64,000 bases of DNA, from contig CM060989.1 of assembly GCA_030765065.1 (NCBI GenBank), forward strand, positions 59,596,001-59,660,000. The letters run 5' to 3'. Within the stretch, counting starts at the first letter, position 1. The number at the start of each line of letters is the position of its first letter. Below are positions 2,720-56,860 of the stretch, piece after piece. Below the pieces are notes generated by a model, which made no database searches, had not been told where the DNA came from, and saw only the letters and a list, made by a program, of their open reading frames with translations. The position numbers and the translations under genes were made by a program. This DNA comes from Deroplatys truncata (Eukaryota; Arthropoda; Insecta; Mantodea; Mantidae).

Positions 2720-3661
2720 GAAAATGTTAGGGATTTCCGTGTGTCCCTGTGCCCTGTCTGCTTGAGGGCTGTAGTCTTTTGCGGTTCCTTCATTTTGTCG
2801 CGGTATCTCGTGTTATCTTTTTGCTGGGCGCCTGTTATTGTATTACTAGTTCGAATTTTGCGTTCTTTGTCCTCCGGCTAGCTATTATTTCTCAGTCGGG
2901 CATATCTCTTAAACAGGGTGTGTAAACGGAAAGGATTTATTACTGAAAGATAACACTGATAAAAGAATTTGTTTTTACACTTTTATTGCCGTCACACTTT
3001 ATTCATTTCACAAATTATTCTTGATACACGCCCGACTGAAACTGTTATATTTTTTATGTTACTATAATCACTTATTTGCTGCACATTATTAATTCGCGTA
3101 TTTCACATTTATAACTAACTTTACGACGCGAGAGATTCTGTTAAACTGTGCGACGTGTAACCTTTGTATGATTCTGTTAAACTGTGCGACGTATAACCTT
3201 TGTATGATTCTGTTGGACTGCACGACGTATTACCCCCGAATGCTTCTGTTGGACTGAGCGATACTTGTCTCTGGCTTCATAATATATACTCCCTCACCCC
3301 AATATGCCTAAACATTATAACAGAGCTGCTATTGGTTAATAAAACGCGCCAACATTAGCGTCTATTTTTATATCCAATCAAAATTACGAACACATATGCT
3401 CTAAGGAAAATATTCCCTCCATTTCTACAGAAAAGCGCGCTAATCTGACGTCATTTGCTTGTCTCTTCTAATTAATAAACAACTCACCCCATCGTTTTAT
3501 TGTTACCCGCTCCTATTGTCAGTTTCAGTGAGGCCGTGTAAACTTATTTCCTAACAATGCTTATAGTTAACAAACATCTCAAATCAATGTCATACAATAA
3601 TGTTAATTTACACTATAATCACTCTGGCATTTACAGTGTTGTGATATAAAATACTGCCACA
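2720..3661 (-). mobile_element. Solo LTR of the tandem-PBS family, inverted copy
   Basis: The reverse complement starts TGTGGCAGTATTTTAT at 3661, as the other four LTRs do, and contains TATATATT (3282-3289), a poly(A) signal near AATAAAAGTG, and the conserved block GCTAGCCGGAGGACA (rc near 2868-2882). Four tandem units of about 35-40 bp carrying GCGACGT lie at about 3125-3262. The other end is diverged: I see a weak primer-site-like word (GGCGCCCAG) but no clear CA terminus or target duplication, so the left edge is approximate. Confidence 0.7.
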
Positions 3662-8991: not shown

Positions 8992-10820
8992 TCTGTGTTA
9001 CACTCACATAACTTTCTCTACTCTTGTACAAACTATTTTTACAAACGCTTATTCACCGTATGCTTCATGTTAATCGAGATGTTAATCTTATTGCTAATTT
9101 TCTTGCAGATGCAAGGGGAATATGGTAGGCTTTAAGTGATAGTCAAATCTTTAACAGCTGATTGCTATGTGGAGTATTTCATTCTCTTTGCATGTCCAGG
9201 AATAAAAGAATTCCCTTTTGAGAAAAAGTATAAATATCGTAAAATTCAAACAAATATCTAGGAACATCACGATAATGGGTCACTCAGACGAAACAGTGTG
9301 TATCACATAAATTGTGTGTTTTAACGAGATCTACATTTTTTTGTGTATTAAAATTTTGTCTATCTCTTACGGTTTACCAGTTATGCGAAAGTCATTCAAA
9401 ATGAAGAGGAATTTTAGGGACATTCCCAGAAAATTGATACGGTAATTTGTATCACAAATTACTTAAATGTAAATAATGATTGTAATATGAATATGTATTT
9501 TTATGTGACATTGATTTCAGATGTTTATTAATTGTAATTATTATTGGTAAATAATAATATACGGCTTTACTGAAACTGTCAGTAATGGCGCAATAATGCA
9601 GCGATGGGGTGAGTTGTTTATCATTACCGGGAACAAGGAAGTTACGTAATGTTTCGCGCCTTTTCGGTAGAAGCTTCTAGAATGTTTTCCTAAAGCATAT
9701 GTATTCCTGGTTTTCATTGGATATTAAAATAGACGCTAATGTTGGCGCGTTTTATTAGCCAATAGCAGTTCATTTATAATGTTTAGGCATGTCGAGGAGT
9801 GGGAGTATATAAGCCAGGTCCGAGGTAGATCGCCCCGCAGTTCAACAAAATTCTCAATACCTTACACGTCGGTCGCTCAGTTCATCAAAATTTCTAGCAC
9901 GCTGTCTTCAGTTCGTCATAAGTTACGCGCAGCAGAATTACGAGAATCTAAAGTATTATACAGTTAAATATACACAAAGTTGAAGTATGCGAGTTAAAAG
10001 TGATAAGTAAGAAGTTATTACAAACAGTTTCAGTTTGGCGAGTATCCAGATCAATATGTAAAGGTGTTTGTGAACGTGTTCGGCAATAAAAGTTATAAAA
10101 CCAATTTCTTCATTAAGTATAATTTCTGGATAAAAGATTCCTTTCCGCTTCACAACCTGTAAGAGATATATGTTCTACCAAGATAAGATGATAGCTAGCC
10201 GGAGGACAATCTACGAAACTTAAATTCTTTCGAGCACTAATTGATGCAAATTGCTACGCCAGATGGAGCTACAAACCAAACAAGGAGTGACGTCATAAGA
10301 TGGCTTCAACACACGTGATGTAAACAACATTACGTGAGAAACATTATTTTATCGCAAATTGGCTTCCACAACGTGGGGCTACAAATACACAAAAACTTAT
10401 TAAACAAGCATCTACCGTTGCAAAATTCAAGATATAAGTTTTATTTGCTATAAAATATCTTAAAGATGTATTTTAATAAAATCGTTAGACCATTGTTGAG
10501 AGACTCAACAATTTCGAAATATCTTCTATATAAAGGGTAGTCTGAGGTAGGGGATTTTCTTGAAGGTCTTCGTGTCGTATCCTTGGAACATACTAAAACC
10601 GAATACCAAGTTTGGTATTTATCCGACTGTTCGTTTTGAGTTATGTTGTTCACAGGCAGACACACACGGACATGATTCCAAAAATGTTTTATTTGGATTC
10701 AGGGCACCGCAAAACATGCATTTTCGGTGAAACCTCGGTATTGAATTTTTGGGTGGAATGCAATACTTCCCCTATTTACTATACGTAGTAGAGAAAGTCA
10801 TGTGAATGTAACACAAGATA
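8992..10820 (+). mobile_element. HINE copy (forward) split by a solo LTR, with a swapped right end
   Basis: It starts TCTGTGTTACACTCAC, six bases after the previous copy ends, so the two are head to tail. The LTR 9435-10422 interrupts it. The right end AGTAGAGAAAGT (ends 10798) is followed by CATGTGAATGTAACAC, which normally belongs, inverted, to the left end. This copy therefore ends in an inverted left terminus. Confidence 0.85.
9435..10422 (+). mobile_element. Solo LTR, tandem-PBS family
   Basis: Starts TGATACGGTAATTTG and ends TACCGTTGCA, an imperfect inverted repeat, with AAAT at 9431-9434 and 10423-10426. TATATAA is at 9806-9812 and a poly(A) signal near AATAAAAGTT (about 10085). The conserved block GCTAGCCGGAGGACA lies near 10195. 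After it come three modules of the type GCAAATTGGCTTCC...GTGGGGCT, the clearest at 10353-10380, resembling a tRNA-Lys primer-binding site inside the LTR. No gag or pol is present. The flanking HINE sequence is continuous across it. Confidence 0.88.
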
Positions 10821-33979: not shown

Positions 33980-35957
33980 TTTCTTCTTCTTCACTTTAGG
34001 GATTAGGCATTTCTGACTTTTCCGTCTTCGCTTTCCAACAACGACTCCCATCTTCATCCACGAGGATTATAACTTGTTATTAATACTGGTATTCTTTCTT
34101 CGCTCATTCTATTCATAAGTTCTTTCCAATTCTGTTTATTTTCTTCTATTTTATCTTGTAATTTATATATGCCTAATTCCTCTCGAATATTTTCATTTCT
34201 TATTAAATCTCGTCTGTTGCATTCTTTAACTCTACTTAAAAACCTCATTTCTGTGCCTGTATTTTACGTTTGTCTCTTTCCTTTAATATCCAGGACTCAC
34301 TTCCATACATGAGCACTGAAACTGACATATTTTTATAAAATTTCTGCTTCGTTTCTCTCCTTATTTTGTTATTCAAATTTCCACATATCTATGGTTCCAC
34401 AAATCTGCTGAAACTCGTTTATCTTGTGTTCTAAAACCTTTTATAAATCAAACCTTACTTCTCAGCCAAAATAGTTGAAATTCGAGAGCTGTTCCAGGCA
34501 TTTATTTTCAATACTTACTTTTGACCTTACCAGACACTTTCCTTAATGTGACATTATTTGTTTTTCTTTGTGCATATGTTTAAATTATATTCCTTTCCCA
34601 ATAAATACATTTTATACACGAACGTTGGAGATTCTTTTCATTGTCCTTTTTTATCACTGCATCATCAGCGTAGAAAATCACATTTAAATTGTTATTTTGA
34701 TGCAGTAATTTGTATCACAAATTATTTAAATGTAAAGAATGATTGTAATATGAATATGCATTTTTATGTGACATTGATTTTAGATGTATATTGATTGTAA
34801 TTATTGTTGAGAAGTAAGTTTATACTGCCTTACTGAAACTGACAATAATAGCGTGCAATAATGCAGCGAGGGGGTGAGCTGTTTATCATTATTAGAGACG
34901 AGGAAGTTACGTAATGTTGGCGCGTTTTTTTTCTTAGAATTTGCTGGAACATTCTCCCTAGAGCATATGTATTCATAATTTTCATTGGATATAAAAATAG
35001 ACGCTAATGTTGGCGCGTTTTATTAGCCAATAGCAGCTCAGTTATAATCTTTAGGCATATCGGGGTGTAGGAGTATAAAAGGGCTAGGTTAGAGGTAGAG
35101 TCCGTCAGTTCGTCGAAAATATTTGTATGCTACACATCGCCTTCAGTCCGTCAGTTCGTCGAAAATATTTGTATTCTACACGTCGCCCTCAGTCCAGCAG
35201 AAATATTTGTAAAGTATACGTCGGCTATCGATTCGCAAGTTACGCGTAGCAGAGTTATGAAAAATCTAAAGTGTTGTAAAGTTAATTATACAAAAAGTTG
35301 AAGTACGCGAATTAGGAATGATCAGTAATGAAGTTATTATAACAGTTTCAGTTTGGCGGGTGTCAAGATCAATGTGTAAATTGTGATAGTGAATGTGTTC
35401 GACAATAAAAAGTGTAAAACAAATTCTTTCATCAGTGTTATCTTTGGATAATAGACTCCTTTCCGTTTACACAACCTGTATAAAGAGATGTGCTCGACCA
35501 AAAAGATCATAGCTAGCCGGAGGACAGTAAACCAAAATTAAATAAAATAACAGTAGCATTCTTTCAAACAAACACTAATACTGCCGCAAATTGCTAACAC
35601 CAGATGGAACTAACAAACATTATAAAGAATCACGTCACAAAATGGCTTCAACAGTGAAGTAAACACAAATACACAAACATTATAAATTTACCATCGCAAA
35701 TTGGCTTCCAGAACGTGGGGCTCAATCAACAAATAAATATAACAGAAGTATACCACCGCAAATTGGCGCACAACGTGGGGCTACAAAAAATGTTAAATAT
35801 AAATAACATTATACCATCGCAAATTGGCTCCCAAACGTGGGGCTCAACAAATTAAATAATATTACAAGTATACCACTTCAATTTCTATTCAGTTGTATTT
35901 CTTCACTCACTTTCTTCCAAATTTTAATCAGATCATCCACGCGTGGGAGAAATAGCC
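33980..35957 (-). mobile_element. 5'-truncated LINE, split by a solo LTR
   Basis: Flanked by TGTAATGAAA on both sides. On the minus strand the reverse transcriptase reads VDDLIKIWKKVSEEIQLNRN (35942-35881) and, after the LTR, NNLNVIFYADDAVI with the catalytic YADD box (34661-34672). Further down come FYKNMSVSVLMYGSESWIL and the tail IREELGIYKLQDKIEENKQN. The element ends in a GAAGAAGAAG-type tail without long poly(A). Frames are broken and most of the 5' part is absent. Confidence 0.85.
34698..35880 (+). mobile_element. Solo LTR, tandem-PBS family, longest copy
   Basis: TGATGCAGTAATTTG ... TATACCACTTCA with ATTT on both sides (34694-34697, 35881-35884). TATAAAA at 35074-35080, poly(A) signal AATAAAAAGTG near 35404, conserved block GCTAGCCGGAGGACA near 35513. 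After that block are five primer-site-like modules; the three best are at 35694-35722, 35756-35784 and 35817-35844, each containing CGCAAATTGGC and ACGTGGGGCT, with a period of about 60 bp. The LTR's last bases (ATACCACTTCA) look like the start of a further module. No internal genes. Confidence 0.9.
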
Positions 35958-47347: not shown

Positions 47348-48289
47348 TGTGGCAGTAATTTGTATCACAATAATGTAAATGCCAGATTGATTATAGTGTA
47401 AATAAGCATTATTGTATGACATTGATTTGAGATGTTTGTTAATTATAAGCATTGTTAGGAAATAAGTTCACACGGGCTCACTGAAACTGACAATAAGAGC
47501 GGGTAACAATGAGCGAGGTGGTGAGTTGTTTATCAATTATTAGAGACAAGCAAATGACGTCAGATTGGCGCGCTTTTCTGAGAAATGGAGGGAACATCTT
47601 CCCTAAAGCATATGTGTGTTCGTAATTTTGATTGGATATAAAAATAGACGCTAATGTTGGCGCGTTTTATTAACCAATAGCAGCTCTGTTATAATCTTTA
47701 GGCATATTAGGGTGTGGGAGTATAAAAAGCTAACGCCAGAGGCAAGTATTGCCCAGTTAAACAAAATCATCCACGCGTTACACGTCGCTGAGTCCAACAG
47801 AATCATCCAGAAGTTAAACGTCGCTTAGTTCATCAGAATCGTTCGCGAGTTACACGTCGCAATTCTACAGAATCTCTCGTGTCTTAAAGTTTGTTATAAA
47901 TGTGAAACACGCGAATTAATAATGTGCTGTAAATAAGTGATTATAGTGATATTAGAAAATATAACAGTTTCAGTCCGGCGTGTATCAAGAGTCAATATGT
48001 GAACTTAATTAATTGTGACGGTAATAAAGGTGTAAAAACAAATTCTTTTATCAGTGTTATCTTTGAGTAACAAATCCTTTCCGTTTACACACCCTGTTCA
48101 GGAGATTTGCTCGACCGAGAAATAATAGCTAGCCGGAGGACAATGAACCCAACATTCAAAGTAGTAATTCAATAACAGGCGCTCAGAAATAAGATAACAC
48201 GAAGTGACCGCGACAAATTGGCTTCCATACGTTGAGCATATAAACATGAAGCATCTTCTACCAACTACCAACAAATAAATACCACTGCA
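47348..48289 (+). mobile_element. Solo LTR, tandem-PBS family
   Basis: TGTGGCAGTAATTTG ... ATACCACTGCA with AGGA at 47344-47347 and 48290-48293. TATAAAAA at 47721-47728, four leader repeats with ACGTCGC (about 47745-47885), and GCTAGCCGGAGGACA near 48129. One clear primer-site-like word, TTGGCTTCCATACGTTGAG, at 48218-48236. Confidence 0.9.
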
Positions 48290-55469: not shown

Positions 55470-56860
55470 GATATGACTCCGCGGTAAGTGTGAGGCTCGC
55501 ATTCGGGAGGTTCAGGGTTCGATTCCCTGTGGCCGCTCACTCTGACCATGGGTTTTTCGTGATTTTCCTTAGTTGGACACAGGCGAATGCTGGGGTGGTG
55601 TATTCCACCACGGAGTTACTCTCTCCCGCATTTTCTCTCAATTCCTTTCCCTCTTTCATGTATGAGGTTTGAGGCAGTATTTTTAACACTTAAAATGATT
55701 TCAGTCAAATTATATAATATATAAATTCAATAATAGCCCGCCTTAAAGCAATATGTGTATGTAACAGTCATTGCATATGCTTATATTATTGTAAACATGT
55801 TCAATAATGTTATGTGAATGCATTACGTAATTTAATAATGTAGGAGCTATGAGAAATAGGTTTAAAGTTGCTAACAATGAGGTAACCTTGAGGCAATAAT
55901 GAGTGAGGAAGTTTAATAATACTATTAGTCATTATTGGAGCAACAATAATGTAATTTTAGTGACAGTTTATAAAAATAGCCAATCAACAACCAGAAAAAA
56001 CTTTAGTTAAAAGAGGGTATTCTATTGGATTAGGAATAGCCAATCAGAGACTTGAAATACAGAAATTTACAAATTTAGGCGGTGGAAAACAGTTCAGTTG
56101 CTTCTAGACAGTGCTCATAACCAGACGCGGGATGTGTCCTCGAGAAATTAAATACGTGTGAGTCGAAAATAGTTTACGTGTTAAAAAAGTGTAATTAATT
56201 AAATAAAAGAATCTCATAGCTCTCTATGTCAGTGAAGTGCTATTTAATTAATAAAAAGGAGTGAATTAAAACTTAAAATCTGTGTAAGCCTACATTCTTC
56301 AGTCGCACCACAACCCTATCAAGAGAAACATGTCAAATTACAAAGCTAATATTTTTAAATTTGGGGCGAAGGCTACCGGAAACCGGGTACTATACGTGTG
56401 GTTGCAACAACTTCAAATTCGGCTCCCCAACAGTTGAAATATAATACAACCCCTACAATAAAAAACACCTACTTCAAATTGACATCCATACGTGGTGAAA
56501 GCAACGTAAAGAAAACACTAACTTCAAATTGGCGCCCAGCGTGGGGCAAACATCGTAACAGAAAAACACCTACTTCAGGTTGACTCCGGAGTTGTATTCG
56601 GTCGAGCTCGGGCGGAGACTTGCGAATTGGAGCTTCTTTTCGGCCCTGCTAGAGGAAAGTCTGGAGTCTCCGCTGCTGGGTCGTGTTTCCTCGGTCCCAC
56701 TAGAGGGACGTCTCCGAGCGATTCTTCCGTGGCCGGGTGGTCAAGCTTAGAACTATTAGGTGCACGTCTCTGTCGACTTGCACTGGCCTATATTGCAACC
56801 CATACGTCTCCTGCGGTTTCCTCACCTCATCCGTTGCTTCCAGGGATGTATGCATAAAAC
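55470..56860 (+). mobile_element. SINE family A copy split by a solo LTR
   Basis: Head: GACTCCGCGGTAAGTGTGAG and GGGTTCGATTCCCTGTGGCC, then CTGACCATGGGTTTTTCGTG and GCGAATGCTGGGG. The LTR 55670-56577 follows, and the SINE tail resumes at 56578, including GTCTCCTGCGGTTTCC. Confidence 0.72.
55670..56577 (+). mobile_element. Solo LTR, tandem-PBS family, divergent copy
   Basis: TGAGGCAGTATTTTT ... CTACTTCA with GGTT at 55666-55669 and 56578-56581. Near the 3' end are three modules starting ACTTCAAATT: TTCGGCTCCCCAACAG (56418), TTGACATCCATACGTGG (56479) and TTGGCGCCCAGCGTGGGGC (56529-56547). The last is nearly a perfect tRNA-Lys-type primer-binding site. The middle of the LTR differs from the other copies, so it is a second subfamily. 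Confidence 0.85.

Follow-up and report, generated by a model that had tools for sequence, protein, structure and literature searches.

Long terminal repeats (LTRs) of Deroplatys truncata carry, in their 3' ends, tandem modules that each join an LTR-end word to a primer-binding site (PBS) matching tRNA-Lys. It is highly probable that these modules can prime reverse transcription and thereby set the LTR boundary, and that shifted or inter-RNA transfer reshuffles them. We also lean towards the stronger view that inheritance does not fix the position of the LTR boundary, that each reverse transcription picks a module, and that PBS-anchored strand transfer between RNAs shuffles the modules, so that most insertions are born with non-identical LTRs. 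In the textbook scheme the U5 end is dictated by where the PBS lies and an element is born with identical LTRs, which is the basis of LTR dating and annotation. Here the U5 end is apparently a choice, and LTR pairs differ at one defined place. If the reading as an array of cassettes is true, the PBS is a recombination hot spot and the rule of LTR identity at insertion is broken.

PBS modules in the solo LTRs of the window

The window is the whole stretch of 64,000 nt that was analysed (CM060989.1, 59,596,001-59,660,000), taken from a genome of 4.29 Gb. An initial annotation had set the limits of four LTRs by TG...CA ends and 4-bp duplications (TSDs). This is borne out, as all 4/4 have TG...CA ends and exact 4-bp TSDs. 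The features are as follows.

9435..10422, + strand: solo LTR of family 1 with one clear PBS module (PBS 10360-10379, 3 edits); TSD AAAT
34694..34697, no strand: left copy of the TSD ATTT of 34698-35880
34698..35880, + strand: solo LTR of family 1, TG...CA, with three intact PBS modules in its 3' end; TSD on both sides
35578..35611, + strand: eroded module 1, with end word ATACTGCCGCA, AAT and a decayed PBS
35630..35659, + strand: eroded module 2, with end word TCACGTCACA, AAA and the decayed PBS TGGCTTCAACAGTGAAG
35699..35760, + strand: module 1, with AAT, PBS 35702-35721 (4 edits), leader and end word TACCACCGCA
35761..35821, + strand: module 2, with AAT, PBS 35764-35781 (1 edit), leader and end word TACCATCGCA
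35822..35880, + strand: module 3, with AAT, PBS 35825-35843 (2 edits), leader and the LTR end TACCACTTCA
35881..35884, no strand: right copy of the TSD ATTT
47348..48289, + strand: solo LTR of a diverged subfamily of family 1, with internal PBS 48219-48237 (5 edits); TSD AGGA
55670..56577, + strand: solo LTR of family 2 (U3 unrelated to family 1); TSD GGTT
56480..56497 and 56530..56547, + strand: PBSs inside 55670-56577 (6 edits and 1 edit, respectively)

A module consists of an end word in CA (e.g. ACCACTTCA, ACCGTCGCA), a 3-nt spacer AAT, a PBS of 18-20 nt and a short leader, rich in A/T, that extends as far as the following end word. Being composed of end word and PBS, each module has both things that a U5/internal junction needs, namely a site for the primer and an end of integrase type. 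In the window copy 34698-35880 the modules are arranged in tandem with a length of 59-62 bp, all three intact PBSs sit behind ..CA and AAT, and the two eroded modules are located in the first stretch ("base") of U5. Tandem modules of LTR end, AAT, PBS and leader inside solo LTRs, as described initially, are thus confirmed by three intact and two eroded examples in this LTR. The module numbers given at the time (about 1, 3, 3 and 5) hold for 9435-10422 (one) and 34698-35880 (three plus two eroded) and have to be corrected for 47348-48289 (one) and 55670-56577 (one to three, of which one PBS is near-perfect and the others are degenerate). The LTR 47348-48289 shows a second, weaker CA/AGGA end 194 bp beyond the TSD-fixed one.

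Both strands of the window were scanned for TGGCGCCCAACGTGGGGC with ≤ 4 edits. Five sites were found on the + strand, all within three of the four LTRs, and none on the - strand. Twelve dinucleotide shuffles returned three sites in total (0.25 per shuffled strand), all with 4 edits, and chance likeness of the PBS words was rejected on these grounds.

All four LTRs had been assigned to one family. This could not be maintained: 55670-56577 gives no blastn match at E 1e-5 to the other three window LTRs and hence represents a second family with the same layout. A further copy close to 47348-48289 (87%) lies at 2791-3661 on the - strand of the window, for which the TSD scan gave no supported end.

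Module arrays and primer tRNA across the genome

First-look searches of the genome returned 3,365 and 3,668 candidate places. Using the internal leader as query, we took 24 elements in rank order among the 40 matches listed (leader-selected set). Allowing ≤ 5 edits, the number of PBSs before the leader is one in 3, two in 9, three in 10 and four in 2 of these arrays, giving two to four tandem PBSs in 21/24; a single PBS is usual, though not obligatory, in Ty3/Gypsy elements. CA and a 3-nt spacer precede 55 of the 59 array PBSs, the spacer being AAT in 53/59. The PBS flanks are likewise well kept, with TGGC at the start in 53/59 and GTGGGGC at the end in 52/59. A length of 19 or 20 nt was found for 50/59 PBSs and a perfect match to TGGCGCCCAACGTGGGGC for 4/59, while the terminal PBS beside the internal region is mostly the imperfect TGGCACCCAGAACGTGGGGC or near it. 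In 50/59 PBSs an insertion of 1-2 nt is seen in the middle with the flanks intact (e.g. 35702-35721, 35825-35843), as though a bulge divided the pairing with the tRNA into two blocks.

Given the mid-PBS insertion and change in most copies, some of the PBSs may not really prime. Two further findings count against the explanation that we favour: an imperfect terminal PBS still bounds the LTR in L038, E2, F2 and AUT, and only one PBS is present in each of L029 and L034, which are coding-type copies. The imperfect middle would also suit an array that serves some other role, e.g. binding of a host factor or tRNA-fragment decoys, with the PBS likeness reflecting ancestry only. We regard this as hardly probable at all, because the PBS flanks and the CA-AAT junction are kept together and because LTR ends and tRNA joins (see below) use the PBSs.

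A tRNA-Lys(CTT) gene was called by ARAGORN in L084. As read, it is without encoded CCA; its last 15 nt plus CCA predict the PBS TGGCGCCCAACGTGGGGC exactly. The comparison of the modules with the 3' end of the host tRNA-Lys, which had been proposed initially, thus yields an exact match and contradicts the notion that they pair with no tRNA 3' end. A different primer tRNA was considered and rejected: the host tRNA-Lys(CTT) fits the perfect PBS copies exactly, and the extra 1-2 nt of most PBSs would imply an acceptor strand longer than a tRNA can have. The identical PBS word is described for SERV endogenous retroviruses, where, in genotype Cer-SERV-2, it forms the complement of tRNA-Lys1,2 (PMC8775094).

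The tRNA-Lys pattern has 140 matches in the genome, and among the matches listed all after the first eight fall in one cluster on C9. The cluster is large and consists of tRNA-Lys(CTT)-type genes in tandem with a unit of ~144 bp; it extends from C9:191136768 to at least 191186056 and is covered in part by L084.

We compared 46 modules from 28 arrays with each other. Pairs from the same array (26) have a mean similarity of 0.529, pairs from different arrays (1009) one of 0.562. That modules are no more alike within than between arrays argues against recent local duplication and for exchange among copies, and simple local tandem duplication was therefore rejected as the origin of the arrays. For a number of modules another element contains a near-identical one (0.9-0.97), in some cases at a different position. 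By sequence, the arrays look shuffled among copies.

LTR ends, tRNA joins and LTR pairs

LTR ends were examined in several sets. A set selected by U3 only comprises eight LTRs in rank order among 40 matches listed, without the window copy and both LTRs of L035. Six of the eight are solo LTRs with exact TSDs, all of which close at a module end, after 1, 2, 2, 1, 1 and 2 modules; the other two are parts of two-LTR elements. In a tail-selected set the TSD stands directly behind a module end word in 13/16 single LTRs, mostly after three modules, a set that is biased since it was picked by likeness to a three-module tail. Ends after four modules occur in L016, L011 and L012, the latter two having common flanks, so that they may represent a single event. 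The 3' LTRs of two-LTR elements contain 0 (L030, L035), 1, 2 or 3 modules. Of the 24 leader-selected elements 17 were evaluable in this respect (L029, L034, L036, L039, E3, E6 and F3 were dropped with a 3' LTR outside the fetched stretch or a disrupted LTR), and their 3' LTRs contain no module in 2, one in 11 and two in 4 cases. Overall, TSD-fixed LTR ends are found after 0 to 4 modules.

Ends after differing module numbers agree with the initial proposal that priming at a downstream PBS builds the upstream copies into the LTR. LTRs ending before the first module, which had been named as evidence against it, do occur (L030, L035), but alongside copies ending after 1-4 modules, and this combination is the pattern predicted by variable priming. 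The initial proposal needs an amendment in that the boundary moves both ways.

Modules outside the LTR point in the same direction as the variable ends. In 4/9 elements with concordant LTRs (L010, L013, L030, E1; see below) an extra module is left between LTR and terminal PBS, as expected for unused modules when priming at an upstream PBS sets the LTR. A PBS copied from the tRNA should moreover give a perfect PBS right behind the LTR. Such a PBS is present in L030, E1 and L009 and absent in L010, L013, L038, E2, F2 and a copy that was read at its two LTRs, whose starts are separated by 7.8 kb; this copy has two modules in both LTRs and the TSD TAAT.

Ordinary tandem repeats of U5, generated by slippage or unequal crossing over, would leave a single outside PBS to prime and the LTR end fixed. 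It is true that the modules follow one another in tandem and differ little in length (59-62 bp in the window copy), and that in L009, L038, E2, F2 and the 7.8-kb element the arrays of the two LTRs match and a single PBS lies outside. Nevertheless we consider ordinary repeats very unlikely: they are contradicted by the TSD-fixed ends after 0-4 modules, by the extra PBS modules outside the LTR in L010, L013, L030 and E1, by a within-array similarity not above that between arrays and by tRNA joins behind different modules.

These joins were found among the eight listed places outside the C9 cluster. We call a place a fossil if a longer tRNA sequence plus CCA is joined on. Seven of the eight (L083, L105-L108, L110, L111) contain 3' parts of tRNA-Lys of 30-76 nt that are CCA-joined to other DNA; the eighth, L109, was rejected, as ARAGORN calls a tRNA gene there. 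In L083, taken together with L104, the join runs into a family-1 U5 in which two PBS modules precede the primed site, giving a tRNA-joined end behind upstream PBS copies. In L111 the tRNA is joined at GCGACA-AAT, a site homologous to the internal PBS 48219 of the window LTR 47348-48289 and also to a PBS present in decayed form in the U5 of E4, F2 and F5. L108 shows a family-1-like end word and, at the margin of the stretch, the last part of a PBS; L106 shows CA and a 3-nt spacer. L110 has one PBS-like word upstream of the join and belongs to an element of another family. A clear LTR end at the join was not found in 2/7 places (L105, L107). The exact pattern tRNA arm-CCA-NNN-TG has four matches in the genome (L083, L106, L110, L111), the reversed control none.

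On a plain reading, the CCA-joined tRNA-Lys ends would be cDNA that kept its primer, although L107 and L110, where nearly the whole tRNA is present, could be of other origin. So understood, the joins show, in a small number of fossils, that array positions of more than one kind are primed, among them a position that other LTRs contain internally. The end behind upstream PBS copies in L083 with L104 is in line with downstream priming as initially proposed. For stepwise growth of the LTR, also put forward there, the eroded modules and L111 give indirect support, while the arrays look shuffled rather than locally duplicated.

Two observations accompany the fossils. L110 represents a third type of LTR end, a hint that a third family has the same layout. 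In L111 an LTR-end-like word, CGATACCGCGACA, recurs after a 44-nt tRNA-Lys stretch, and the join may belong to an end-to-end product. As a separate candidate, 68 exact matches of TTCGAG, PBS and AATT were considered as tRNA read-through and rejected; the 2/68 that were read represent a shared leader of the 55670 type (TCGAAGAGAC...).

Comparing module number between the 5' and 3' LTRs of single elements had also been suggested. By eye, 11/17 evaluable elements differ in the last module(s) (L031, L032, L033, L035, L037, L040, E5, F1, F4, F5, F6; discordant), 5/17 show classical behaviour (L030, L038, E1, E2, F2; concordant) and E4 is ambiguous (1/17), with a 3' PBS of 5 edits. Other searches add four concordant elements (L009, L010, L013 and the 7.8-kb element) and a discordant one, L025, in which the 3' LTR exceeds the 5' LTR by one module and the TSD ACGT stands on both sides. 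Exact TSDs are found in 9/12 discordant elements. In L040 3/4 bases match, in E5 none was seen, and F4 is without its 5' end, which may be due to a deletion.

Outside the last module(s) discordant LTR pairs are mostly about 98% identical. Eight of the 12 discordant and seven of the nine concordant elements were pooled, leaving out L025, L035, E5, F4, L038, the 7.8-kb element and E4. In the discordant pool mismatches amount to 32/1746 upstream vs 47/295 in the last module, a contrast that the P of 2e-21 only describes, since the set had been sorted by eye before the test. The concordant pool has 19/1480 vs 5/250 mismatches (P 0.38). F6 alone is not significant (P 0.13), because its difference spans most of its U5; that of E5 starts at the first module. 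In neither case would a one-step shift be expected to extend so far upstream. The last module of E1, an element classed as concordant, contains a 4-nt indel. Rearranged 5' LTRs are seen in F4 and E6. Self-alignment of the LTRs of 12 elements gave nine pairs, seven of which span from the LTR start to within or near the array. The exceptions are L038, which is cut by the stretch, and L039, where the alignment breaks ~250 bp upstream because the 3' LTR is disrupted there.

DNA-level gene conversion can also cause differences between 5' and 3' LTRs. Discordance and mixing as a whole would then be owed to gene conversion or ectopic recombination after insertion instead of reverse transcription. More than 3,000 candidate places in the genome offer partners, and the rearranged 5' LTRs of F4 and E6 as well as a tandem product in L010 fit in. 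We nevertheless judge this unlikely, for exact TSDs are kept in 9/12 discordant elements and 7/9 self-aligned pairs run from the LTR start to within or near the array. Moreover, such events would not readily place TSD-flanked solo-LTR ends at different modules, nor make tRNA-CCA joins.

For priming within the array, we propose the following course. A single junction of LTR end, AAT, PBS and leader would have become a tandem array of interchangeable modules, each with a ..CA end and a tRNA-Lys(CTT) site. With tRNA-Lys priming from the PBS that follows module j, minus-strand strong-stop DNA, and hence the new LTR, should stop at module j. Upstream PBSs would then enter U5 and downstream modules remain internal, a step backed by the LTR ends and the tRNA-joined fossils. 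Since several sites of the array are available for pairing at plus-strand transfer and two RNAs can take part, the minus- and plus-strand PBSs would frequently be matched out of register or across RNAs. Mispaired transfer would give the 5' LTR another last module than the 3' LTR; the difference itself is observed, its cause presumed. Over generations the LTR boundary would shift both ways, modules would mix, and unused PBSs would erode inside U5. Net growth of the array would presumably need exchange between RNAs.

A simpler version manages with a single RNA, whose minus-strand PBS pairs one module upstream. Only discordant elements whose 3' LTR has at least two modules are informative here (L025, F1, F5, E5), and in 3/4 of them (L025, F1 and F5, not E5) the shared modules stop one before the 3' LTR end, as this version predicts. 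F6 and E5, which differ over most of U5 and from the first module on, respectively, would in contrast need a second template, and module types shared among copies point to exchange between RNAs. The single-RNA version is thus a possibility of some weight, albeit with less than even chances.

Element type and known systems

Judging from their sequences, the elements are Ty3/Gypsy-like and so of a known kind of LTR retrotransposon, with an apparently new layout. TG...CA LTRs with a short TSD are present, and the PBS is complementary to the 3' end of the host tRNA-Lys. E3 shows the order protease, reverse transcriptase (RT) and RNase H with no integrase between protease and RT. Its protease-like fragment in L049 matches RVP_2 (E 0.0075) and RVP (E 0.021), both below the Pfam cut-offs, and the adjoining L082 matches RVT_1 (1.7e-20) and RT_RNaseH_2 (4e-22). 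Integrase-type matches come from L038, an internally deleted copy separate from that of the E3 RT (H2C2 3.2e-13, rve 1.4e-8, SH3_Tf2-1 8.2e-9). Integrase downstream of RNase H, the order expected of Ty3/Gypsy elements, is also that of BEL/Pao elements. L034 has an open frame of 675 aa in gag position, in which no Pfam gag match was found. Several internal regions are ~2.2 kb long with gag-position pieces; the coding-type copy E3 has the same array, with three modules and a terminal PBS.

For family 2 six 55670-type copies were scanned (window, L016, L018, L019, L021, L022). A TSD stands behind a module-like end word in 4/6 (window, L016, L018, L019), with 0-2 PBS-like words inside; for L022 several ends come into question, and none was found in L021. 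Two family-2 members that include the terminal junction (L112, L113) show a three-module array and a zero-module array before an exact PBS.

With Ty3/Gypsy elements (Metaviridae) the families share TG...CA LTRs, the 4-bp TSD, a tRNA PBS 3 nt behind the LTR, a gag-position frame, protease-like, RT and RNase H matches and integrase domains with H2C2 and SH3_Tf2-1-like matches. Unlike them, they have two to four tandem PBSs (21/24 arrays), a variable 3' LTR boundary and last modules that are often non-identical. Several short copies retain only LTRs and part of the gag-position frame and resemble TR-GAG and LARD elements in this respect; to our knowledge PBS arrays are no part of the definition of either.

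Multiplied priming sites are described elsewhere in other forms. HIV-1 MAL has a natural partial PBS duplication, a 23-nt insertion downstream of the PBS seen in 14% of isolates (PMC3185550). It is one partial copy outside the LTR, and the account of it does not report LTR growth or shifted ends (PMC3185550). The lentiviral vector design LTR1 is described as carrying out reverse transcription from an RNA with two PBSs (PMC5542766); it is engineered, and the design as presented places the PBSs separately, without a tandem array inside the LTR (PMC5542766). Sireviruses are described with natural multiple PPTs, about four per element (PMC2829016). There the multiplied site is the plus-strand primer, next to one conserved PBS junction, as opposed to the PBS array here (PMC2829016).

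A limited search of open-licence PMC full texts found no natural LTR family with tandem PBSs. The element type is known, and the tandem-PBS layout is apparently new in the open-licence literature searched. The elements offer a natural system for testing the effects of primer choice, strand transfer and RNA co-packaging on retroelements, and the module record of U5 may be a stratigraphy of past priming. They are also a warning that LTR boundaries and LTR-pair dates are open to misreading in such families.

Some copies show additional structure. Family-1 LTRs sit between two parts of family-2 LTRs in L005, L008, L016, L019 and L021, indicating nested insertions. L010 is a tandem of LTR-internal-LTR-internal-LTR with a spacing of 3479 bp, near-identical units and AATT at both outer sides. 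Satellite-like tandem repeats lie beside the elements in L013 (1-2312) and L009 (8721-9844), both in reverse-complement coordinates, with units of ~68 and ~139 bp.
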